A stretch of 64,000 bases of DNA from Flavobacteriales bacterium (GCA_025210295.1 JAOASC010000048.1:124001-188000); one strand, 5' to 3'; counted from the stretch's first letter, positions 32,735 through 54,427 are shown. Notes: generated by a model from the sequence alone, not told the origin. Numbers and translations: made by a program.

Positions 32735-32807
32735 AAGTAGTTTTCTATTAACTTTCGTTGATATAATAGTCTGCCATAGTTCCCTAAAGAACAATTAACA
32801 AACATCT

Positions 32808-33569
32808 ATGTTGAAACAAAAAATCGTTAACATATTATTCATCAATTTGGCTTTTATCTTATTCCTTAGTTGTAATGCGGGACTAGGAAATAAAAAAAAC
32901 ACAACTTCTACCTCTGAAGTAATAATCAAAAAAACGGACACCATAATTACTAAAAACGGTAAACACCTCTTAATTATTGAAGCAATTGATTCTCTTCATT
33001 TTTTTTCTACCAAGGCTAAAAGTGGTTATAAAAATGATGATTTTTTAAAAATTACCGACTTCTATGAAGCGAAAAAACGACTTAAAAACATCGCTGAATT
33101 TGATGATACAGCGATGGAACCTCCTGTCGTTTTAAAATTACGAGATAGAAGAAATAGAACAATAAAAATAGACGATTATTACGCTTTCGTTGCATATTAC
33201 CCCGAAGAGGATATATTACTGTGTGAAGGGGGACATTCAATAGATGTAAGTTTCAACTTGAAAAACGGTGAAAGAACAGTACAAACAGGTAATCCTGAAG
33301 TTATTAAATCATCACCCACCAAAAAATATAGACTAAATGGTCACTTCGGGGGGCAACAATGCTACACTTATTTTATCCAAGAACGTTTTGATAAAAGTTT
33401 CAAAAAAGTAGTTTTATTGGGTGAAGCCTTTGAAAAAACAACCAACAGGTCACTTTGTGTAATTGGAGATGCCTTTTGGATTAATGACCATGTTTTATAC
33501 TTAGCTGAAGACTCAAACTTTGGCGTTGACATTAAATACTTTAAAATTGAGATGATTAAAAAACAATGA
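32808..33569 (+). CDS. Hypothetical lipoprotein
   Basis: 253 residues. Lipobox LFLSC with Cys22. No acidic surface-export signal directly after the Cys. Mature part is basic and beta-rich with no recognised motif. The upstream 32750-32775 stretch resembles the promoter core seen before the cassette genes further right (TAACTTTCGTTGATATAATAGT). It is followed after 58 nt by another secreted-protein gene. Confidence 0.65.
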   Translation: MLKQKIVNILFINLAFILFLSCNAGLGNKKNTTSTSEVIIKKTDTIITKNGKHLLIIEAIDSLHFFSTKAKSGYKNDDFLKITDFYEAKKRLKNIAEFDDTAMEPPVVLKLRDRRNRTIKIDDYYAFVAYYPEEDILLCEGGHSIDVSFNLKNGERTVQTGNPEVIKSSPTKKYRLNGHFGGQQCYTYFIQERFDKSFKKVVLLGEAFEKTTNRSLCVIGDAFWINDHVLYLAEDSNFGVDIKYFKIEMIKKQ

Positions 33570-36666: not shown

Positions 36667-36694
36667 ACGTAACTTTCATTTGTATAATAGTTGA
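36667..36694 (+). promoter_or_regulatory. Promoter-like core shared with the downstream spacer repeats
   Basis: GTAACTTTCATTTGTATAAT followed by AGTTGA matches the core GTAACTTyCGTTkATATAAT AGTTAG found at 37505-37530, 38865-38890 and 41051-41078. TAACTTTC is a variant -7 box. The gene starts about 10 nt later. Confidence 0.5.
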
Positions 36695-36704
36695 CATATA
36701 AAAA

Positions 36705-37277
36705 ATGATTATCAAACGACATAAGATATTAATACTAACAGGTGTTCTTTTGTGGGTTTCGGGATTTTTTATGGCAGCTATGACAATCTACCCTTTCGCA
36801 TTGATTGGAGTTTACGTTGGCCCACCAATTTTAACAATGGGTATAGTTGGTTGGATAATAAACTACAAACATACCAAGAGTCAATTTCCTAATCCAATTA
36901 GAGCATTCAACCGAATATTAAAAAAGCACAAAGGACTACCGAAATATCATTTCGCAATGTTTGAATTTTTGTTCTCCTATCTACTTCATTTTTGGACTTT
37001 TTGCATAGTATTTTGGATTGGAATTGCCTTTTTAGGTACAACAGCTTTTAAAAATTCCAATGCGTTTGCAACAACCAAAAATTATGTTGAAAGTGACAGC
37101 CGACTGATAGAACGAATTGGACAAATTAGATACTATGGATTTCTTATTGGCGGGACGATTTCTTCAAGTGGAGATGCTGACATCTCTTTTTCAATAATCG
37201 GAGATAAAGAAACAATTAATGCGAAAGCGATACTTGAAAGAGGAAAAGTGACAGAAATAAAATATAAGCAACATTAG
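36705..37277 (+). CDS. Membrane protein with C-terminal Coa1-like domain
   Basis: 190 residues. Three membrane helices at about 10-30, 35-52 and 88-112, then an extracytoplasmic domain (YVESDSRLIERIGQIRYYGFLIGGTISSSGDADISFSIIGDKE). This resembles the Coa1/Tim21-like domain of many Bacteroidota membrane proteins of unknown role; the match is from memory and tentative. The stop codon TAG lies inside a CATTAG sequence at the position where neighbouring modules end in GTTAG, so the gene reaches the module boundary. Confidence 0.5.
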   Translation: MIIKRHKILILTGVLLWVSGFFMAAMTIYPFALIGVYVGPPILTMGIVGWIINYKHTKSQFPNPIRAFNRILKKHKGLPKYHFAMFEFLFSYLLHFWTFCIVFWIGIAFLGTTAFKNSNAFATTKNYVESDSRLIERIGQIRYYGFLIGGTISSSGDADISFSIIGDKETINAKAILERGKVTEIKYKQH

Positions 37278-37530
37278 CCCACTTTTCTTCCCCAAACAAA
37301 AGAAAGCCGCTAATCAATAGACTAACAGCGCTATACACGATTTTCCTCTTGCCCTATTTTTAATAAAAAAAGTTTAAATTTTATCCAACTACACATCACC
37401 ATCTAAAAAAGCACATAAAACCACTATTACGTTTATTTATAAATGAATAGTAAAAAACATTGAATAACTTCTTTTCACAGGTGGTTATCTATAGTTTTTT
37501 TTTAGTAACTTCTGTTTATATAATAGTTAG
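37273..37530 (+). repeat. Spacer repeat copy 1: degenerate hairpin plus promoter ending in TAGTTAG
   Basis: 258 nt. Shares with copies 2 and 3: a start of ...TTAGyCy then CTTTTCTTCCCCAAA, a hairpin-like CCGCTAAT...TAACAGCG, a CCACTATTACG...ATAGTAAAAAACATTGAATAACTT stretch, GGTTATCTATAGTTT and the core GTAACTTCTGTTTATATAAT then AGTTAG (37524-37530). Same orientation as the downstream gene, whose expression it probably drives. Confidence 0.8.
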
Positions 37531-37555
37531 TGGCAATTCAAAAAAGACACCCATC

Positions 37556-38503
37556 ATGCATAAAGAAATAGAAACATTAATTATCAAGGAAAAAGAACTT
37601 CAAGAAAGAATTAATGGATTGACAGACTTATTTAAGAGTTTTCAAGAAGTTGAAAAACAAAATTTGTCAAATAGCATAATTGATAAATTAATTCGAATCC
37701 AAGAATCAGCATTGAGTGACAATATCACATTAATTGAGGCTTATGCTTCAGTGAGATATGTTTTAGAAACACTTATACAAACTGAATTGTTATTGAAAGA
37801 ACCAAGCTATACTTTTAAACTATATTATTCAATATGTACCCATCAGATTGATAAGTATCAGAAGTTTATTAATCGAATCCATGAGGAAATAAAAATTATG
37901 GAATCTTATGAAAATGAAGATAAGAAACTAATGGATATAGTAACAGATAGAATAGCTAAGGGAGAAGATTCTTCTCTAGTAATGAAAGAACATGATGAAG
38001 CGCAAAAACAGTTAGATGATAAAGCCGATTTAGAATTTACAATGTTTACATCCGATTATAAGACTAATGGTTATGGAGTTACAGCACATCTATTAAAGAA
38101 CAAGATTTTACCAGATTACGAGCAAGCATTAAAGGATATAGAAGAATCTAATCAAAAGACAGCAAAAAGTATTGTAAAACTAGAACGAATTTCTACGTTA
38201 TTTGATTTTAAAAATCAGTATAGTCGAGTGTTTAAAGAATTGAAGGATGGACGTTCTTGGAAAAAGAAAGCAGAAGAAGCAAATCTTAGTAATGAGTATA
38301 AGGTGATTTATGATTTATCAAGTGCTTTACTTCACTCTACTTCATATAGCTATAATACTTCTAGTGACTATACCGATGCTGATAAAGACATTGCATTGAA
38401 AATGATATTCAAGTACTCAAAGAAAATTAATCACAATATTAATAAGTATCTTGACTTGAAAAGATATAGCAAAATAACAGTGGTAAATGTTGAAGAGGAA
38501 TGA
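37556..38503 (+). CDS. Hypothetical coiled-coil protein with C-terminal helical domain
   Basis: 315 residues from ATG 37556. A TTG further upstream would translate the repeat-derived promoter and is rejected. N-terminal helical, coiled-coil region (KEIETLIIKEKELQERINGL), a central segment VRYVLETLIQTELL and a C-terminal YDLSSALLHSTSYSYN, which resembles the His-containing end of DUF5677/AbiV-type all-helical domains. A defence-related role is conceivable from context, not shown. It is followed 10 nt later by a long palindrome. Confidence 0.55.
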   Translation: MHKEIETLIIKEKELQERINGLTDLFKSFQEVEKQNLSNSIIDKLIRIQESALSDNITLIEAYASVRYVLETLIQTELLLKEPSYTFKLYYSICTHQIDKYQKFINRIHEEIKIMESYENEDKKLMDIVTDRIAKGEDSSLVMKEHDEAQKQLDDKADLEFTMFTSDYKTNGYGVTAHLLKNKILPDYEQALKDIEESNQKTAKSIVKLERISTLFDFKNQYSRVFKELKDGRSWKKKAEEANLSNEYKVIYDLSSALLHSTSYSYNTSSDYTDADKDIALKMIFKYSKKINHNINKYLDLKRYSKITVVNVEEE

Positions 38504-38512
38504 AGAAAAGCC

Positions 38513-38647
38513 ACTAACAAAGTACATAAAACATTTGTCGGAAAGTGCTAATTTTAAGGTCTATACATTTAATAAAAACTGTAACGGTTTGACAGGTCGG
38601 CTCTCCGAAATGCCAAACGTTTCATATACATAGCCGTTAAACGTTAG
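38513..38647 (+). repeat. attC-like palindrome P1
   Basis: Left arm CTAACAAAGTACATAAAACA then TTTGTCGGA. Right arm TCCGAAATGCCAAACGTTTC then ATATAC...CCGTTAAACGTTAG. The reverse complement of the right arm (GTATATGAAACGTTTGGC...TCGGA) aligns with the left (GTACATAAAACATTTG...TCGGA), with extra bases on the right side. Ends CTAAC/GTTAG. About 135 nt, directly after the gene stop. Confidence 0.75.
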
Positions 38648-38890
38648 TCTCCTCTCCTCTTTCCGAAAAAAAACGCTGCTAACCAAAAGACTAACAGCTC
38701 TTTACACAAGTGGATTCTGTAAGGTTCTTATCTCCCTTCATTAATCAAACTACAAACTGTACCAACTAAAAAACAAACATAAAACCACTATTACGTTTAT
38801 GTATAAACAATAGTAAAAAACATTGAATAACTTATTTTCATAAGTGGTTATCTATAGTTTTTTAGTAACTTCCGTTTATATAATAGTTAG
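38643..38890 (+). repeat. Spacer repeat copy 2: hairpin, CACAAGTGG and promoter ending in TAGTTAG
   Basis: 248 nt, homologous to copies 1 and 3 along its length. GTTAGTCTCCTCTCCTCTTT leads into a degenerate hairpin (GCTGCTAA...TAACAGC, about 38674-38697), then ACACAAGTGG. The 3' part is nearly identical to copy 1 and ends GTAACTTCCGTTTATATAAT then AGTTAG (38884-38890). With P1, this accounts for the 411-nt gap between genes. Confidence 0.8.
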
Positions 38891-38914
38891 CTGTAACTTT
38901 AAAATAGAGACATC

Positions 38915-39889
38915 ATGACAATAAAAGAAGCAATTTTACAGAGTTTAGAAGATTTAAAAAAAATAGCGACTTATATGGAAGTTCATGACCATATAATCAA
39001 GAATAACTATTATGACTTTAAAGATGCAAAAACGCCACCTGCAACTATTTCTGCATTGCTTGGTGACTTTATTAGACTTGGTGATTCTCGTGTAAAGCGT
39101 TTAAAAGGAAAAGGAGGAACTTTTTCATACTATCTGACAAAATTTGAAAAAGATTTAGATGTTGAAAAAGTTGTAATTCCCTCGACTGAAACCAAAACAA
39201 AGAGAAAAGATAAGACTTACCAAGAGAGAGATTTACATCTTCTTCTAAGTAGTTATCTAAAACACCAGGACTTATATTCGAAAACAATATTCCACGAAAA
39301 ATCTACAGGAAACGATAATCACCAAAAATGGATTCATCCAGATATGGTTGGGATAGATTTTTTAAATCTTCAGTCAAAATCAACGCAGACTTTATTAAAA
39401 GTCATAAACAATGCAGACACTTTCAAAATCAATTCATACGAAATAAAGAAAGAAATCAATACTGATTACGAATTGAAAAAAACATTCTTTCAGGCAGTTT
39501 CAAATTCAAGTTGGGCAAATTATGGATATTTAGTTGCTTTTGAAATTAGTGACAGCCTAAATGAAGAAATGGAAAGATTAAGTCAGTCATTTGGAATTGG
39601 AATAATTGAATTAAAAGCAAATCCATTTGAAAGTAAGATTCTATTTCCATCGAAATACAAAGAACTTGACTTTAAAACAATTGATAAACTCTGCAAAATC
39701 AACAAGGATTTTGACAGGTTTATAGAACAGGTCGAAAAACTATTAACTGCATCGGAAAGATATGTAAAATCGACTGAACGAGAATTGGTTGACTTTTGTG
39801 ATAAATACATGACAAATGATACAGAAATTGAAAAATATTGTCAAGAAAAGAATATTCCAATAGAAAAAGCAGCAGGTAACAATGTTTAA
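38915..39889 (+). CDS. HARE-HTH domain protein with PD-(D/E)XK-like C-terminal region (COG2958-like)
   Basis: 324 residues. The N-terminal about 80 residues match the HARE-HTH winged helix (TIKEAILQSLEDLKKIATYMEVHDHI ... TPPATISALLGDFI), a domain shared by chromatin proteins and restriction enzymes. The C-terminal part has WIHPDMVGIDF, then SYEIKKEI and FFQAVSNSSWANYGYLVA, in the order of a PD-(D/E)XK nuclease (D...ExK). Probably a DNA-targeting defence or regulatory protein. The last codons (...GNNV) and the stop lie inside a palindrome-like left arm (39875 onward). Confidence 0.65.
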   Translation: MTIKEAILQSLEDLKKIATYMEVHDHIIKNNYYDFKDAKTPPATISALLGDFIRLGDSRVKRLKGKGGTFSYYLTKFEKDLDVEKVVIPSTETKTKRKDKTYQERDLHLLLSSYLKHQDLYSKTIFHEKSTGNDNHQKWIHPDMVGIDFLNLQSKSTQTLLKVINNADTFKINSYEIKKEINTDYELKKTFFQAVSNSSWANYGYLVAFEISDSLNEEMERLSQSFGIGIIELKANPFESKILFPSKYKELDFKTIDKLCKINKDFDRFIEQVEKLLTASERYVKSTERELVDFCDKYMTNDTEIEKYCQEKNIPIEKAAGNNV

Positions 39890-39965
39890 AAAACATAAGT
39901 GGTTCAGTCGTTTACGGAAGTTTGGAGCATTTAATCAGCTCCGCCAAATCTTCGATTTGATGGGT
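39875..39965 (+). repeat. Decayed attC-like element P0 between two genes
   Basis: Begins GGTAACAATGTTTAAAAAAC like the left arm of P3 (GGTAACAATGTATAAAAA) and continues with GGAGC...GCTCC and CAAATC TTC GATTTG mini-hairpins. No matching right arm: the next gene begins 18 nt further on. It overlaps the 3' end of the upstream gene. Confidence 0.5.
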
Positions 39966-39982
39966 TATTTAAAAAAAACGAT

Positions 39983-40708
39983 ATGACAAATCTTGAAATT
40001 ATTACGAAATTAAAAGAATCCACTTTTACAGACGAAGATGGAGAAAAATATCAACTTGAATTTCAAGATGGATTGACTGATTCCGAAATTGAACAGCTTA
40101 AAGAGCAATTCCCAAGTAACAATATTGACAGTGAAATAATTGAAATACTGAAAGAGACCGAAGGTTGGGACGGTTATGGACCTGAAATGGTTTGTTTTGA
40201 CTCTATTGGACAATTCGGATTTTGGGAATTATCTGCAAACTCCATTACTCTTGGACACGATGGGTATGGAAATCATTGGATTTTGGATTTAAATGAAAAC
40301 GGAAAACCTAACAAAGTGTTTTTTGCTTGCCACGACCCAGCTGTATTTGTTGTTCATTCTCAAAACCTGAATGAATACTTAAAACATTTATTAGAATTTT
40401 ACGAAAGCCCTGACAAATGTCATCTGAATGAAATTCACGAGAAAACCGTAATGACAATTTGGAATAAAAATGACCTATGTTCGCCTAAAACCGAATTTGA
40501 AAATCAAAATCCTGAATTCAAAGACTTTCTGAATAAATTTGACGGAGACGAATGGACTATTGCTGACTTGAGAACTGGAAAAAACAAAGATGGTTTTGCT
40601 TGGGGAAAGTTTGGAGCGAATCAGTTTACGGAAAGACATCCGACTGAATTGGTATGGGTAATTAAGAATAAGAAAAAAAGCTTTTTATCAAGACTTTTTG
40701 GAAAATAA
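39983..40708 (+). CDS. SMI1/KNR4 (SUKH) family protein
   Basis: 241 residues. SUKH-like features: an N-terminal LTDSEIEQLKEQFP, then GWDGYGPEMVCFDSIGQFGF, LGHDGYGNHWILDLNENG and a strand VFFACHDPAVFVVHSQNL. SUKH proteins are commonly immunity proteins for polymorphic toxins. Here it shares a module with the HARE-HTH nuclease-like gene, so it could be its antidote or simply independent cargo. C-terminus basic (KNKKKSFLSRLFGK). Confidence 0.7.
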   Translation: MTNLEIITKLKESTFTDEDGEKYQLEFQDGLTDSEIEQLKEQFPSNNIDSEIIEILKETEGWDGYGPEMVCFDSIGQFGFWELSANSITLGHDGYGNHWILDLNENGKPNKVFFACHDPAVFVVHSQNLNEYLKHLLEFYESPDKCHLNEIHEKTVMTIWNKNDLCSPKTEFENQNPEFKDFLNKFDGDEWTIADLRTGKNKDGFAWGKFGANQFTERHPTELVWVIKNKKKSFLSRLFGK

Positions 40709-40717
40709 AAACAACTG

Positions 40718-40774
40718 CTAACAGTGGCTATAAGTAATTGCTTGTTCTCGCCTACTTCTGAGGTTAACCGTTAG
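40718..40774 (+). repeat. attC-like element P2, shortened
   Basis: Left arm CTAACAGTGGCTATAAGTAA then TTGCTTGTTCTCG. The right arm is reduced to GGTTAACCGTTAG, which matches the right end of P4 (CATTAACCGTTAG). The partner of TATAAGTAATTGC is missing, so this copy appears internally deleted. Confidence 0.6.
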
Positions 40775-41078
40775 TCCCCTCTCCTCTTTCCCAAAACAAA
40801 AAACGCTGTTAATCAAAAGACTAACAGCGTTTAACACAAGTGGGCCCTGAAGGGCTCCTCTAAACCATATTTCATTGACACACTAACTATTTGTACCAAC
40901 GTTTGAACTAACAAAAGAACTTTTTCTTGAAGTGTTTAATTTTTATCAAACTACTTATAACCATCTAAAAAGGTATATAAACCACTATTACTATTGTTTA
41001 TAAATAACAATAAATAACTTCTTCTCACAGGCGGTTCTCTATAGTTTTTTTAGTAACTTCCGTTGATATAATAGTTAC
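40770..41078 (+). repeat. Spacer repeat copy 3: strong terminator plus promoter ending in TAGTTAC
   Basis: 309 nt. GTTAGTCCCCTCTCCTCTTT is followed by a perfect 11-bp hairpin (AAACGCTGTTA 40801-40811 / TAACAGCGTTT 40822-40832), then ACACAAGTGG, a stretch longer than in the other copies, and the promoter end GTAACTTCCGTTGATATAAT then AGTTAC (41072-41078). With P2 it fills the 416-nt gap. Confidence 0.8.
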
Positions 41079-41124
41079 AACCTAATTAAACAACCTCACC
41101 CATCATACAAAAAGAAAAATTTAA

Positions 41125-41817
41125 ATGGAATCACAAAAGACTCAATCCGAAACAGTAATTAGATTCAAGTGGTTTGACAAGCACCCCGCTAAAAGTATTA
41201 TTCTATACACTATTACAATTGGTGTAGTGACTTGGGGAATTTTTGGTTTTTTATTAGACGATAGAAAAGAAAATCTGCATAAAACAGAAATTGAATTATT
41301 GAACTTCAAACTTGATAGTAATAAAGTTATTGAAGGTCAGCTACTAGCAAGAGTCGATTTTTTAGAAAAAGAAAATATGACGCTGAGAGAACAGAATTAT
41401 AAATACTACGAATGGATTTCAAACTCACCCAAAACACTTGCTTATCTTGAGAAAGAAAATTCATCAATGAGAAAGAAAATTTCAAAATTGAAAGAAAATG
41501 AAGCTGACCAACTGATTGAAGATTCAAGTAAAGTAGAAACCGTCCATGAAAAATATCACATTAACTCTAACCGACTTGAAAAAGGCGAAGCATTTATAGA
41601 TGAACTTACGGGAGCTTCGTTATGTGTAACGGACATAAGTTTTTTAAATGATGTTGACGGTCATTATAATCTTCCCAACAGCTCACAAAAGGACTTTTAT
41701 AATTTAAAACCTGGTATTTCATGGGGATTTAAGGATAAGGGGAGAGAATATAAGATTTATTTACAAGAAATAGATTATCCTACAGGGACTTACAAAGTAA
41801 TGCTTAGAGAGCAATAA
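41125..41817 (+). CDS. Membrane-anchored coiled-coil hypothetical protein
   Basis: 230 residues. One membrane helix at about 24-45 (IILYTITIGVVTWGIFGFLL), a long coiled coil about 50-135 (KTEIELLNFKLDSNKVIEGQ and following heptads) and a C-terminal beta-rich domain (GASLCVTDISFLNDVDG). No family recognised. The gene ends immediately before palindrome P3 and sits behind spacer repeat 3. Confidence 0.6.
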   Translation: MESQKTQSETVIRFKWFDKHPAKSIILYTITIGVVTWGIFGFLLDDRKENLHKTEIELLNFKLDSNKVIEGQLLARVDFLEKENMTLREQNYKYYEWISNSPKTLAYLEKENSSMRKKISKLKENEADQLIEDSSKVETVHEKYHINSNRLEKGEAFIDELTGASLCVTDISFLNDVDGHYNLPNSSQKDFYNLKPGISWGFKDKGREYKIYLQEIDYPTGTYKVMLREQ

Positions 41818-41947
41818 CTAACGGTAACAATGTATAAAAATAATAGCCGAGATAGCAGTAACTTAAAGGGGAGGCCACTTCAACCTTCGTGTCATTTGAC
41901 AGGTTTGAAGCCCTCAATCGGTTACTATTCCTATACGAAACGTTACC
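41818..41947 (+). repeat. attC-like palindrome P3 (best-conserved stem)
   Basis: Left GGTAACAATGTATAAAAATA then ATAGCCG (from 41823). Right CGGTTACTATTCCTATACGA then AACGTTACC (to 41947). The reverse complement of the right arm reads GGTAACGTTTCGTATAGGAA then TAGTAACCG, pairing along almost its whole length with two or three extra bases on the right side. An outer CTAACGG precedes it at 41818. Confidence 0.8.
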
Positions 41948-42041
41948 CACAAGTTGGAAAACCAACCTCACAAAAGCAAAAAATAATATCGTACACATTA
42001 CTTTTTTCCCACCTCTGACAGATAATGCTAACTATAGTCTG

Positions 42042-42072
42042 TTGTTTAGGCTGAATACTAAAATTAGCTTTG
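42042..42072 (+). promoter_or_regulatory. Consensus promoter of the controller-protein/BglII-like operon
   Basis: TTG (42042-42044), exactly 20 nt, then TAGCTTTG (42065-42072): full match to the Bacteroidota sigma consensus. An inverted repeat ACTAAA / TTTAGT (42057-42062 and 42078-42083) flanks the -7 box and could be a controller-protein operator. TAGTTAG (42080-42086), as at other module starts, lies just before the ATG. Confidence 0.7.
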
Positions 42073-42088
42073 CATACTTTAGTTAGCA

Positions 42089-42316
42089 ATGAATTCAAAA
42101 CAAAACATACTAATTAAATTTGGAGAAAGAGTTCGAGAAATCCGAAAGGAAAATGGTCTTTCTCAAGAAGAATTAGCTCATAAAGCTGATTTACATAGAA
42201 CATATATTGGTATGATTGAAAGAGCAGAGAAAAATATAACTTTGGTAAATATCTTAAAGATATCAGATGCTCTTGGGGTTCAAGTTAAAGACTTATTTGA
42301 TTATGGCACTAACTGA
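42089..42316 (+). CDS. XRE-family controller protein of a type II RM system
   Basis: 75 residues, a single HTH_3 domain: FGERVREIRKENGLSQEELA then HKADLHRTYIGMIERAEKNI. This is the size and pattern of RM controller (C) proteins, which delay restriction-enzyme expression until methylation is complete. It overlaps the endonuclease gene by 14 nt, so the two are co-translated. A short inverted repeat over the promoter suggests autoregulation. Confidence 0.85.
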   Translation: MNSKQNILIKFGERVREIRKENGLSQEELAHKADLHRTYIGMIERAEKNITLVNILKISDALGVQVKDLFDYGTN

Positions 42317-42893
42317 CCTCCCTCATAACATTTTAAACGATTATGAAGTTCATGAATACAAACATGCAGTTGCTATTCTAAAAAATGACTTCCCAAATGA
42401 ATATCAAGACCTGATAGACGTTCTTAATAACTTTACACTAAAACGTTCTGAAATTCTTGCGCCAGGGGGTAGAAAAAGTCCCATTGCAGCAAGGCTTGAC
42501 GAATTTCTTTACGATCGAAATTGGAAGGAACATAATTTCAATACAACTTTGACAATTGATGGGACTGAATATCATACCCCTACTCACAAAATTGATTGTT
42601 ATAAGAATAGGATTGCACTTGATGTAGAATGGAATAATAAAGACCCTTTTTATGATAGAGACTTAAATAACTTTAGATTACTTCATGATAGGGGTGCTAT
42701 AAGTATGGCTATAATAATTACAAGATGTTCTTCTCTTCAACAAATTTTTAAACAACTAGGAAAAGGTAATTCTTATGGTTCTTCTACAACACATTTAGGA
42801 AAACTGCTTCCTAGAATAGATGGTGGTTCAGGCGGAGGATGTCCTTTACTTGTTTTTGGAATACATCCTAATAAATATGACCCAAATAGTTAA
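42303..42893 (+). CDS. BglII/BstYI-family type II restriction endonuclease
   Basis: 196 residues from ATG 42303; the longer frame overlaps the controller gene further and is unlikely. Core segment KIDCYKNRIALDVEWNNKDP then FYDRDLNNFRLLHDRGAISM, with probable catalytic D98 and E109. Known BglII/BstYI enzymes cut AGATCT or RGATCY, so a GATC-containing target is plausible (inference). A Gly/Ser-rich GGSGGGCPLLVFGIHP segment lies near the end. It overlaps the convergent methyltransferase gene by 4 nt. Confidence 0.85.
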   Translation: MALTDLPHNILNDYEVHEYKHAVAILKNDFPNEYQDLIDVLNNFTLKRSEILAPGGRKSPIAARLDEFLYDRNWKEHNFNTTLTIDGTEYHTPTHKIDCYKNRIALDVEWNNKDPFYDRDLNNFRLLHDRGAISMAIIITRCSSLQQIFKQLGKGNSYGSSTTHLGKLLPRIDGGSGGGCPLLVFGIHPNKYDPNS

Positions 42894-44071
42894 TTATTTG
42901 GGGAGCAAATAATTAAAGCTTCTTTTACATTTCGGCTTTTATCTCCTTGCCTCCCCATTGTACTGTGCTTATAGTCTATCTCTCTAATTTCTATATTATA
43001 ATTTAAAAATATAGTTTCTGCAATACTCAAAAGTTTTTCCAAACTAATCATTCCAGTATCACTGTAACTTAAAATTAGAGTACTATTTGCATTAAATACC
43101 TTTTCAAACATTGTCTCAAAAGCGTTTTTAACTTTAGTTTTTATGCAAAATGGCGATTGATGTCTATCGGTTCTATATCTTCCCTTATACTTGACCTCGG
43201 GATAATCATAACGAGCTAATGTCTCTAATGCATGATAAAATCTACTATAATGAACAAATTGATACGGAGGATCTGAATATACAATTGAACCTTCCTCAAT
43301 ATTATCTAATAATTCAGAGAAATCAAGTTGTGTGGCTTCAAACTCAAATCTATTTGGGTTATTTTCATGAAAGGTTTCTCTTAGAGAATTAAATTTTTGT
43401 TTAAACAAAGGAAGGACTTCCTTTCTTCGATAGAATAGAATGTCTTTCATATTAGACTCGTTTACATCTCTATATTGAGCATAATGTCCTGTACTTTGGG
43501 TACAGTAAGACATCGCAAACATAAGTGAAGACATAATTGCATTATAGATAAATGTATTTCTATATTTTTCACTCCTAGCAACTCCTGAAAGAGCATCAAT
43601 CCAAACACATTGTTCATAGGACCAGTAAGTTCCACTAAAATTTTTAGCAAATAAATGATCTAAACCATTAAACCCAAAGTTTAGAAGACTTTGTTGCTTT
43701 TCTTCCAACTTTTTAATTTCCTGAAATGTCAGTGAATTAGAATAATCAAATTTAAAATCTTTATTAGCCTTTTTGAACCTTAACACTTTTGCTTCTGCCT
43801 CAGTTATAATTTCATCTAATAAATTAACAGAATAATTATTCCAATCATAATTTTTAAGGTAAGTTCCTGCAAGTATACTTGTGTAAGTTTGGATGTCATT
43901 ACATGTTACATTTAATTTATTTCTGTATGCCCCACTAACTACTGCTGAACCTCCAAACACATCATAAAGTCTTTGATTTTCATTCTCTAAAACATCGTCA
44001 ATAGCCTCCACTACGAAATCTAAAATATTTCGTTTTGACCCCATATATTTTATGATATGTAGAACCTCCAT
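42890..44071 (-). CDS. D12-class N6-adenine DNA methyltransferase
   Basis: 393 residues. N-terminal IKYMGSKRNILDF (motif X-like), SAM-binding DVFGGSA (37-43) and catalytic DPPY (267-270), the order of Dam/D12 class enzymes. It protects host DNA from the BglII-like nuclease encoded convergently. D12 enzymes typically methylate the adenine of GATC-type sites, which agrees with the nuclease family. A long insert (about 80-230) between the motifs probably holds the target-recognition region. It has its own consensus promoter. Confidence 0.9.
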   Translation of the reverse strand: MEVLHIIKYMGSKRNILDFVVEAIDDVLENENQRLYDVFGGSAVVSGAYRNKLNVTCNDIQTYTSILAGTYLKNYDWNNYSVNLLDEIITEAEAKVLRFKKANKDFKFDYSNSLTFQEIKKLEEKQQSLLNFGFNGLDHLFAKNFSGTYWSYEQCVWIDALSGVARSEKYRNTFIYNAIMSSLMFAMSYCTQSTGHYAQYRDVNESNMKDILFYRRKEVLPLFKQKFNSLRETFHENNPNRFEFEATQLDFSELLDNIEEGSIVYSDPPYQFVHYSRFYHALETLARYDYPEVKYKGRYRTDRHQSPFCIKTKVKNAFETMFEKVFNANSTLILSYSDTGMISLEKLLSIAETIFLNYNIEIREIDYKHSTMGRQGDKSRNVKEALIICSPNN

Positions 44072-44091
44072 TTAATGATAATTATAGTATG

Positions 44092-44122
44092 CAAATCTAA
44101 TATTAATAAATGAATTAAACAA
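44092..44122 (-). promoter_or_regulatory. Consensus promoter of the D12 methyltransferase gene
   Basis: On the minus strand: TTG (44122-44120), exactly 20 nt, then TAGATTTG (44099-44092), a full match to TTG-N20-TAnnTTTG. The ATG follows 20 nt later. Confidence 0.75.
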
Positions 44123-44234
44123 ACGACTGAATAAAACCTCAAATCTATTTTCAAACACATTGCAATTCGTGTTCCTGATGTTGCAAAGAGCTTTCAAGCC
44201 AACGCTGACTGTTAAATAGGACGAACAAGCCAGT

Positions 44235-44371
44235 GGGTAACAACGTATATAAAAAAAGCGATTTAAGTGCTTATTTCAAAGTGGTTTTCGTACTTTTAAA
44301 GCATCTAATAATCCGAAAAGTTAGTACTTATAAATCCGCTACTTTTCATATACAAGACCATTAACCGTTAG
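44235..44371 (+). repeat. attC-like palindrome P4
   Basis: Left GGGTAACAACGTATATAAAA then AAAGCGATTTAAGTGC. Right GTACTTATAAATCCGCTACT then TTTCATATAC...CATTAACCGTTAG. The reverse complement of the right (GTATATGAAAAGTAGCGGAT then TTATAAGTAC) aligns with the left. The right end GTTAG (44367-44371) is flush with the truncated gene copy that follows. Confidence 0.78.
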
Positions 44372-44372
44372 T

Positions 44373-44609
44373 GCAAAACAACTGGAAAACTACACGAAGT
44401 TTGCAATGCAAGAAAAACAAAAAGTTTCTGTAATTTTAGGAGTTGGAGGCCCACCTTCTAACCCTGATAAAATTTACTTAGTTCCATTAAAAAAGTTTAA
44501 TACAGACGGCTCTATTAATGAGTTAACAGTTAATAAATATAAACGTGATAAAAGTAAATTAAAATTTGATATAAAGACACAAACAATTGTTTAATACCAA
44601 AATACCTTA
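44373..44609 (+). pseudogene. Truncated 3' duplicate of the membrane-anchored nuclease gene at 58172
   Basis: The DNA from 44373 is nearly identical to 58682-58915, the last about 74 codons and a few bases past the stop of the intact gene, starting abruptly at GCAAAACAACTGGAAAACTA. The remaining frame encodes only the C-terminal tail after the catalytic ExK, so it cannot be functional. About 15 mismatches over the coding part show it is not brand new. It begins 1 nt after the GTTAG of palindrome P4, i.e. at a module boundary. Confidence 0.85.
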
Positions 44610-46081: not shown

Positions 46082-46114
46082 AAAACGCCCAATCCATAAG
46101 GGATTGAGCGTTTT
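46082..46114. terminator. Terminator hairpin followed by ACACAAGTGG
   Basis: 14-nt arms AAAACGCCCAATCC / GGATTGAGCGTTTT (46082-46095 and 46101-46114) with one mismatch and a 5-nt loop, A-rich and T-rich ends. The sequence right after it, ACACAAGTGG, also follows the hairpins of spacer repeats 2 and 3. Confidence 0.75.
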
Positions 46115-46200
46115 ACACAAGTGGTGCAAAGCGGGGAAGTATCGAATTTTTTTAAGAAAGATTTTGAGTCAGTTTTATTGATTACAAGTAAGAATATCCT

Positions 46201-47548: not shown

Positions 47549-48370
47549 TTATTCTTTACTCCATTTCATATTTAATGCCCATTTAGTATGTTCACCTATT
47601 TGATAGAGTTTCTTTTTTTGATGATTGTCGTGTCCTAAGTTTTTAATTAGTTCATCATCTGCCCATTTATATTCAGAAGAATCTTGATTTTCTAATAACG
47701 TAATTAATTCTATCTCTTGTTCCTTAGTTGGAATTAAATCCAGTATGTCATATTGTAATATTTCAAAACAATCCCAACCTGAAGTTCTTTTTATTGGAGT
47801 TGTAACTGTTCCCACATAATTATAATTAACGTAAGGGAAATTAGTTTGACTTAATATTTTTGTTTTTATTAATTCTTCATAAAACTCTCTCCAATGAGAA
47901 ATTTCTCTATCTTTTTTTTTGTTGAACCAATCTAAAAAATTAATAGCTTTTGATGCAGGAATAAAGATAGCAAAGTCGTCTTTCATTAAGCCTTTGTTGG
48001 GTAATTTCAAATCATCCATTGCTTTAAATTCACTCTTTAAAAAGCTTTGAGATTCTTTAAGTCTTTTATATTTGCCACCTACAAGTTGAAAATGACCGAA
48101 ATTTGAATTTTTTACTAATAAATATTTGTCCTCTATTTTTATTCTATACAAGTAGGACATTGAAAATCGAATGTTTTGTTTTTTTAAAGCTAAGTACTTA
48201 CAATGTAAGGCTAACTTAATCCTTTTTCTATTTTGAATTGACTCATAAATAAATGGTATTAAAGTTCCTATAATTAGTGAAAATCCAATCCACATTAATT
48301 TTGTTTCTTCAATATTCAAACCGATTAAAATCAAAATTGTAGCTACAACTAAAGTTATTAAATGCTTCAT
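47549..48370 (-). CDS. CBASS effector: two-TM protein with SMODS-associated NUDIX-like domain
   Basis: 273 residues. Two membrane helices (about 4-20 and 25-44), then a cytoplasmic domain with the NUDIX-like LLVKNSNFGHFQLVGGKYKR near residues 84-103. The hydrolase box (G-x5-E-x7-RE-x2-EE) is not preserved: no RE...EE follows. So the domain probably binds the cyclic nucleotide signal rather than hydrolysing. Predicted effectors with 2TM plus NUDIX are known from CD-NTase loci; membrane disruption is the expected action. The start overlaps the TRIP13-like gene by 4 nt. Confidence 0.8.
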   Translation of the reverse strand: MKHLITLVVATILILIGLNIEETKLMWIGFSLIIGTLIPFIYESIQNRKRIKLALHCKYLALKKQNIRFSMSYLYRIKIEDKYLLVKNSNFGHFQLVGGKYKRLKESQSFLKSEFKAMDDLKLPNKGLMKDDFAIFIPASKAINFLDWFNKKKDREISHWREFYEELIKTKILSQTNFPYVNYNYVGTVTTPIKRTSGWDCFEILQYDILDLIPTKEQEIELITLLENQDSSEYKWADDELIKNLGHDNHQKKKLYQIGEHTKWALNMKWSKE

Positions 48371-49766: not shown

Positions 49767-50750
49767 CTATTTTATATTAAATGTTCTATCAAAAACTCTT
49801 CTCCATTCTTCGATAGTATCTCCTTCATTATTTTTTGATTGAGCAATATTTAAAGTGTCAAAAGCATCTTCCGCTTCATCAATTATTTCATTCCAAATAG
49901 AATTTGTTACTTTTTTTGCAACACCATTTTCATTATTTGTATTATCTGCAATAAATATCGGAGTATCGTAGCTCGGAATATCATTTATTGCATCCTTGAA
50001 TTTAATTATTGGGAAATTAGGGGCGCTAACAAATTGGAAAAATCGAATAATTCCTTCTTCAATATTGGTTTCTATTCCTTTGTTTATATCCAAATACGCA
50101 ACAATTAACTCAATTGCAAATGAAGACAGGCCAGGTTCATTATCGGTTGGTTTTAGCTCTTTGAAGTTTCTCCACCATTTTATTGCTCTTACTATAGAAG
50201 TATATGAAGGGTTGTTTTTTCTTAATCCCACAGAAAATTCAAGTTGCTTTGAAACACTTGTTATGTATTTTTTTCCACCTCCGCCTCTTTGAGGTTGCCA
50301 AACATATTCTTTTGGGTTTGAGATAGGAATTACTGGTACAATATCAACTTCTAATCCTGTACCACTAAATCTTATTGTAATTGATTTTGTATTTCCTTCT
50401 GCATCAACATCTTTATTAATGTCTTTTTGTGGGTAAATTTCTTCTAAATAGTCAACAATGAAATCGTGTAGTTTTTTTAAATCATTTTGAATTTCATTAT
50501 CACCATCTACATACAATACTAAATCTATGTCAATAGGATTTTCTCCCGTTGGTTTTAATATTGTGTGTTTTTTCCAAGAACCTGCTAAAATATATTTTGT
50601 AACTTTTAAGCCAGTCCTATCATCATTTTTGATTTTGTCTTCAAGTTTTTGTTTCAAATTATTTATCTGGTCTCTATACTTTTGCATATTCTCAGACTTC
50701 AACTTGATTTTATTAATGAAGAATTGTAATTGATTATTGTTTAATTTCAT
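49767..50750 (-). CDS. CBASS CD-NTase (cyclic oligonucleotide synthase), HORMA-associated type
   Basis: 327 residues. Nucleotidyltransferase signature: AGSWKKHT (G57, S58), then PIDIDLVLYV with metal ligands D74 and D76, and a third acidic residue D136 in LEVDIVPVIP. It makes a cyclic di- or tri-nucleotide on infection that activates the effector. Association with HORMA and TRIP13 points to clade C or D (inference). First gene of a four-gene operon (CD-NTase, HORMA, TRIP13-like, 2TM-NUDIX) flanked by elements P7 and P6. Confidence 0.92.
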   Translation of the reverse strand: MKLNNNQLQFFINKIKLKSENMQKYRDQINNLKQKLEDKIKNDDRTGLKVTKYILAGSWKKHTILKPTGENPIDIDLVLYVDGDNEIQNDLKKLHDFIVDYLEEIYPQKDINKDVDAEGNTKSITIRFSGTGLEVDIVPVIPISNPKEYVWQPQRGGGGKKYITSVSKQLEFSVGLRKNNPSYTSIVRAIKWWRNFKELKPTDNEPGLSSFAIELIVAYLDINKGIETNIEEGIIRFFQFVSAPNFPIIKFKDAINDIPSYDTPIFIADNTNNENGVAKKVTNSIWNEIIDEAEDAFDTLNIAQSKNNEGDTIEEWRRVFDRTFNIK

Positions 50751-54170: not shown

Positions 54171-54205
54171 TTACACACAACTTGTTTATATGTGGAAGTT
54201 ATAAA
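54171..54205 (-). repeat. attC-like half element P9
   Basis: On the minus strand AACTTCCACATATAAACAAG then TTGTGTGTAA, like the right ends of P7 and P8 (...TATA...CNTTGTGTGG). The left partner is not recognisable upstream. A small AACCTC / GAGGTT hairpin at 54223-54238 lies beyond it. It marks the right edge of the minus array. Confidence 0.5.
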
Positions 54206-54427
54206 ACAACCCCAAGATAACAAACCTCAAAAGAGGTTATTCAATACTTTTTCTTTGTTTTTCGTAAGTTTACAGAATTACAACTTAGGAGCCTCCTTGG
54301 GTGGTTAATCTTACTTTTATGAAAAACAATCAGCTTGAAAATTTTAAAAGAATACTTGAAATCCATTTATTGTTATACAAATACTATTAATCTAATTTTT
54401 AAATTGACACTCTTGAAGTTTAGTTCA

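Follow-up and report, generated by a model that had tools for sequence, protein, structure and literature searches.

Repeated spacers in a Flavobacteriales gene array as probable junctions of tandem integron platforms lacking an integrase

A 64,000-nt stretch of DNA from a Flavobacteriales bacterium (GCA_025210295.1, JAOASC010000048.1:124001-188000; hereafter the window) contains accessory genes that are separated by three similar spacers in direct orientation, here termed W1, W2 and W3. An initial annotation, made from the sequence alone, had proposed that each spacer ends at TAGTTAG as an insertion point next to a promoter. This raises the question of what the spacers are and how they came to be repeated. 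Most probably, they are junctions of tandem integron platforms devoid of an integrase, with attI-like docking sites located far from an integrase gene.

The homology of the spacers is not restricted to a promoter core. Pairwise alignment of W1 (37278-37530), W2 (38644-38890) and W3 (40771-41078) revealed full-length homology with the same order of parts: identity is 73% over 316 columns for W1 and W2 (E 7e-49), 65% over 316 for W2 and W3 (E 4e-29) and 78% over 198 plus 77% over 61 for W1 and W3. It is unevenly distributed and reaches 81-94% in the last ~110 nt, which comprise leader and core, as compared to 55-72% in the middle and 64-72% in the terminator part. In a search of the whole genome (4.2 Mb) the full spacer was found at this locus only. 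The proposal of three direct copies is thus confirmed. Extension of the search to other Bacteroidota, covering 150 relatives, yielded just 29-48 nt matches in five genomes, none demonstrated as a spacer, and no free-standing spacer. Two details of the earlier description needed correction. W2 and W3 start exactly at an attC-type GTTAG and do lie between the end of a palindrome and a gene as stated, whereas W1 starts at the stop codon of gene 36705-37277; and the terminal motif, given as AGTTAG/C, reads AGTTAC in W3.

The 3' end of the spacers carries a core of 22 nt, TAACTTnCnTnnATATAATAGT, for which the 4.2-Mb genome holds five matches with at most one mismatch. All of them are on the plus strand within 8.3 kb of the window and each precedes a gene; four had been seen before and the one at 32749-32770 had been overlooked. 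Allowing two mismatches added two matches elsewhere in the genome, versus three for a reversed control pattern. With its five matches confined to one locus, the core is therefore neither a product of chance nor a genome-wide promoter motif. Another TAGTTAG (42081-42087), also pointed out in the initial annotation, is not a further copy: an attI core is lacking upstream, and the motif is located inside the restriction-modification cassette 41943-44367, where it belongs to an inverted repeat of 39 nt whose other occurrence is in the methylase promoter.

The affinity of the 3' part is indicated by the sole match of W2 outside the window. It resides on another contig, C12, roughly 80 bp upstream of a divergently oriented gene for a tyrosine recombinase. 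In this genome no other protein matches the integron integrase model TIGR02249 as well. The layout on C12 is that of an ordinary integron, i.e. a minus-strand integrase gene followed by ...TTTAGTAACTTCCACATATAAACAAG/TTAGCC... (the slash marks the insertion point throughout) and by cassettes ending in attC. The closest relative, G078:C108, in which the frame is intact and the protein 67% identical, shows TTTTGTAACTTGTGGATATAAACAAG/TTA at the equivalent place, and a related site is present on the Crocinitomix contig L094 (82% DNA identity over 923 nt). On all three contigs attI adjoins the integrase gene, which is not so within the window. A common design, TAACTT - about 6 nt - ATATAA or ATAAAC - AG/TTA, unites all aligned attI copies.

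The cassettes themselves bear footprints of insertion. In integron cassettes, the initial bases pair with the first arm of the attC that belongs to the same cassette. In the case of W1, the sequence just past the site (G/TTAGTGGC; GTTAGTGGC) is the exact complement (9/9) of the downstream attC arm GCCACTAAC. Complementarity of 9-10 contiguous nt between cassette start and attC arm was found at W1, at two units on contig C12 (C12a and C12b) and in two related genomes (G078:C152 and G053:C45), and was reached by none of 60 shuffles in each case; at a site at position 54180 of the window pairing extends over 8 nt, a value attained by three of 60 shuffles. Junction pairing was used in place of a home-made attC scorer because the latter separates known sites poorly from shuffles (shuffle scores up to 10.6). 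The cassettes all have the same orientation, carry attC and are inserted at G/TT, and pairing is exact at W1, C12a, C12b, the restriction-modification cassette, G053 and G078. Across the loci of the integrase family 81 cassette signatures were counted, versus 14.4 in shuffles. The window has several attC at 38510-44375 and no integrase was found within it, as is characteristic of clusters of attC sites lacking integrases (CALIN; at least two attC, no integrase nearby).

The original suggestion that TAG/TTAG is an insertion point analogous to attI, beside a probable promoter region, is supported by these results, namely by the homology of the 3' part to the C12 integrase leader/attI and by the complementarity of cassette start and attC at the junction. 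There is good evidence that W1 is an attI/Pc-like insertion point, and W2 and W3 are considered as such by homology. From the sequences we infer an attI function for W2 and W3, a location of the cassette promoter Pc in the leader and insertion of the cassettes by the integrase.

Each spacer would then be the seam between two integron platforms in head-to-tail arrangement. In its 3' part, ~110 nt long, it would carry a copy of the integrase leader without intI, together with attI and probably Pc, and cassettes would have entered, as they do elsewhere in integrons, between G and T of TAG/TTAG by attI x attC recombination. The 5' part would represent the far end of the preceding platform, composed of a short 3' flank, a minus-strand terminator and the remnant of a tRNA 3' end. 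The sites would be served in trans or by an integrase lost since, because the only integron-type integrase gene found is the frameshifted one on C12 and none is present in the window. The platforms may have multiplied through tandem integration at a tRNA end or through attI x attI exchange; the latter is known for IntI1 (PMC4792948).

The hairpins in the 5' parts are terminator-like on the minus strand, which carries the T-run, and therefore do not terminate the preceding plus-strand genes. The initial idea that each cassette possesses its own terminator is not tenable, as the terminators face the opposite strand. Read on the minus strand, W3 consists of GAGCCCTTCAGGGCCCA, then CTTGTGT, then the terminator, and the 3' end of tRNA-Met(cat) accounts for the 18 nt GAGCCCTTCAGGGCCCAC. 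Among the spacers, only W3 has this tRNA-Met end. A different tRNA end is found at C12a: this 6-kb unit of integrase, attI and cassette is flanked by tRNA-Arg(tcg), 17 nt of whose 3' end recur in direct orientation at the other side (locus L024, 6430-6446 and 12421-12437).

As to the promoter, TTG-N21/22-TATCTTGG, a good match to the Flavobacterium type, is present in C12a, C12b and at window position 54180, is degenerate in W1 and W2 and does not occur in W3. A sigma-70 promoter scan returned fewer matches than in shuffles, and no attI region was among them. A short inverted repeat (e.g. AACCTCTTTTGAGGTT) is also present in the leaders of C12a, C12b and window 54180, where it is placed between the putative -33 and -7 boxes; it varies among the copies in a partly compensating manner and is possibly an operator.

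Table 1. Position of spacers, attI-like sites, cassettes and terminators in the window
Feature	Coordinates	Strand	Remarks
Spacer W1	37278-37526	+	Decayed terminator/tRNA-end part, leader, attI-like site; insertion point G37526/T37527; core match, alignment to W2/W3, 9/9 cassette-start pairing
Spacer W2	38644-38886	+	From attC G38643/T to attI-like insertion point G38886/T38887; alignment, core match
Spacer W3	40771-41074	+	From attC G40770/T to attI-like insertion point G41074/T41075; alignment, core match
Leader + attI of W1	37417-37530	+	Conserved ~110 nt; homologous to C12 integrase leader/attI; C12a match E 4.5e-10
Leader + attI of W2	38781-38890	+	74% over 90 nt to C12a, E 1.7e-10; E 7e-5 genome-wide
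Leader + attI of W3	40976-41078	+	Alignment among copies and to C12-type attI
attI cores of W1, W2, W3	37506-37527, 38866-38887, 41054-41075	+	Pattern search, at most 1 mismatch
attI core (fourth)	36670-36691	+	1 mismatch; before gene 36705-37277
attI core (fifth)	32749-32770	+	Exact pattern match; before gene 32808-33569
Cassette 1	37527-38643	+	Gene 37556-38503; attC arm GCCACTAAC at 38510-38518 complements cassette start GTTAGTGGC
attC of cassette 1	38510-38650	+	
Cassette 2	38887-40770	+	Genes 38915-39889 and 39983-40708 (SUKH); broken attC at 39870; attC 40711-40777; junction pairing not above chance
Cassette 3	41075-41942	+	Gene 41125-41817; attC 41821-41948; junction pairing not above chance
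Cassette 4, BglII-type restriction-modification system	41943-44367	+	attC 44233-44375; GTGGGTAAC complements start GTTACCCAC, 9/9, by sequence inspection
Terminator-like hairpin in W1	37306-37329	-	
Terminator-like hairpin in W2	38675-38698	-	
Terminator in W3	40801-40832	-	14-bp stem, RNA fold -15.3 kcal/mol, z -6.3
tRNA-Met(cat) 3'-end remnant	40840-40857	-	18 nt; only other genome match is intact tRNA-Met, C48:195290-195366
Fourth terminator + CACAAGTGG copy	46082-46124	-	Right end of array, past last plus-strand cassettes, without attI
Integrase-less leader + attI	54180-54362	-	95% identical to C12a; heads array with CBASS (cyclic oligonucleotide-based antiphage signalling system) cassette

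The gene content of the cassettes deserves separate mention. The restriction-modification system fills one single integron cassette together with its controller gene, attC pairing being intact. Screening of the plus-strand cassette proteins with PADLOC gave no match. On the minus strand, a second attI-led array (54181-47456) contains a CBASS operon as a cassette, with a cyclase (49767-50750; PADLOC E 6e-106) and a SMODS-associated NUDIX protein (47549-48370).

The integrase that might serve these sites is encoded on C12 (locus L024, 6612-7346, of G000:C12). The gene is the only one of the integron type found in the genome, and its frame is shifted by one base within seven consecutive T, where the truncated copy in C12b has six; the frameshift may be a sequencing error. 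For the intact G078 protein the best PDB match in sequence is IntI4 (2a3v, E 4e-39), with 25 residues where IntI4 has 68. Its score with TIGR02249, 216 bits, is below the cut-off of 265, and three members of the clade fall under this cut-off. The predicted fold (mean predicted local distance difference test score 82.6) has XerA and IntI4 as nearest structures and contains no helix between the strand region and helix 200-213; the structural ranking, which places XerA (5hxy, Z 25.0) above IntI4 (2a3v, Z 21.3), was not used to decide on the family. The clade integrases lack the IntI-specific (I2) domain, though they are closest to IntI in sequence. Judged by these sequences, they lie outside the IntI family as usually defined, while the system appears to work like an integron. 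According to PMC9668308, which cites Messier and Roy (2001), the IntI-specific domain has been reported as necessary in known integrons. Relatives of the clade integrase, including a closer family member with 57% (L105), head attC arrays in many Bacteroidota. This appears to be an overlooked class of integrons.

Copies of attI without an intact integrase are not limited to the spacers. With the C12a attI region as query, clear copies were detected in C12b (96%) and at window 54180 (95%), and weaker ones on contigs C20 and C5. C12b has attI with a 342-nt piece that comprises the 5' end of the integrase gene and its leader (94%), but no intact integrase; the same deficiency applies to the copy on C5, and that on C20 is decayed. 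The ends of contigs C12 and C5 overlap, and C12a, C12b and C5 therefore appear to be consecutive platforms; two of them share a 3' flank (GTTAAAAAAATACACCTTC...). Among the relatives, a second attI is present on another contig of G078, with a cassette and without an adjacent integrase. An orphan attI with a cassette also exists in G053, an integrase of this kind not being found there at E 1e-30. The earlier notion of duplicated target DNA is partly upheld by this recurrence of integrase-less attI copies in this genome and two relatives. The orphan copies start at differing points in or near the integrase start, which suggests that they arose by separate losses of intI. An attI-like core of the C12 type was also seen at the 3' end of the gene for a more distantly related integrase (39% identity), near a contig end (L173, G054:C196, 8712-8735).

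Several points weigh against the interpretation of W1-W3 as platform junctions. At W2 and W3 junction pairing comprises 6 nt, a value attained by 45% and 62% of 60 shuffles, respectively; it is not above chance and the case for these two copies therefore rests on homology to W1. W1, in turn, has no attC at its left, and a recognisable tRNA end is kept only in W3. The core of the W type (TATATAATAG) is unlike that of the C12 type (ATATAAACAAG), and an integrase with a W-type attI was not found. With the C12 frame shifted, the genome has no known intact integrase, and the differing left ends of the orphan attI copies fit independent loss of intI but do not prove it.

Could the spacer itself be mobile, as the initial annotation had considered? 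It would then be a gene-less cassette, a circle with terminator, promoter and attI that moves between attC and attI sites and provides each gene with a promoter. W2 and W3 indeed span exactly the distance from the G/TTAG of an attC to that of an attI, and attI can recombine with attC. Nevertheless, this explanation is improbable. A tRNA end and a terminator on the opposite strand make up the 5' part, and such a cassette predicts neither this strand nor a lone fourth terminator; at 46.1 kb the terminator part ends the array without an attI. As W1 has no left attC boundary, this copy does not have recombination points on both sides. The same order on C12/C5 arises from whole tandem platforms that share a 3' flank, and a free-standing spacer was not found in the 150 relatives.

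Less remote, though still unlikely, is an origin of the copies from ordinary homologous duplication of spacer plus cassette, followed by cassette exchange at each attI. Here the attI function would be retained and only the origin of the copies would differ. The direct orientation would be explained, attI x attC exchange would diversify the genes, and all alignments are compatible with such a course. On the other hand, the genes between the copies are unrelated, an old age of the copies is evident from 55-72% identity where constraint is lower, and no trace of duplicated cassettes is left; the tRNA remnants and the dispersed copies on C5, C12 and C20 would stay unexplained. Very little speaks for the cores being nothing but strong promoters, repeated before accessory genes and without a role in recombination. 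It is true that TATATAAT resembles a -10 box and that every core directly precedes a gene, but with at most one mismatch no further copy exists in 4.2 Mb, and neither the homology to attI beside an integrase nor the footprints of cassettes, which fall on one and the same base at five sites, would be accounted for. Junctions of integrase-less platforms are the reading we prefer.

Descriptions of integrons give a single attI for each platform. Here, one genome appears to be equipped with many docks for gene capture rather than the usual single one, and this would alter the usual view that expression is limited to the first cassettes of a single array. In a broader sense, and with the balance about even, there may be a Bacteroidota lineage of integrons with domain-less integrases, in which attI has spread as separate docks, in tandem and genome-wide, and one integrase acting in trans fills many short arrays, so that genes each come first behind a promoter. 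If true, integrases that recombine attC without the supposedly required domain would be candidate intermediates between Xer-type recombinases and classical integrons. Their seeming use of attC without I2 also bears on the 'chicken-egg' question of the origin of this domain (PMC4792948). Standard tools look for the IntI domain and the class 1 attI and would therefore miss both parts of the system or file them as CALIN.

Complete integrons were nearly unknown in Bacteroidetes, Salinibacter ruber being the only case in PMC9024848, and the open-access literature yielded nothing on tandem attI docks, several attI in one integron or Flavobacteriales integrons of this type. With the attI/Pc platform of class 1 and chromosomal integrons the system shares the integrase divergent from attI, insertion at G/TT and attC of the type RYYYAAC...GTTRRRY in one orientation; it differs by many attI per genome, mostly without integrase, and by an integrase without the IntI-specific domain. 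Integrons of the Treponema type are described with one attI each (PMC3607928), and the C12 type differs from them in being divergent. For the insertion-less members of the 'integron-like' subgroup of tyrosine recombinases, the available part of PMC8138268 describes neither attC arrays nor repeated attI. Like a CALIN (PMC9024848), the window has several attC and no integrase; unlike a CALIN, it contains attI, several of them in tandem; the tool of PMC9024848 detects attI of class 1 only.

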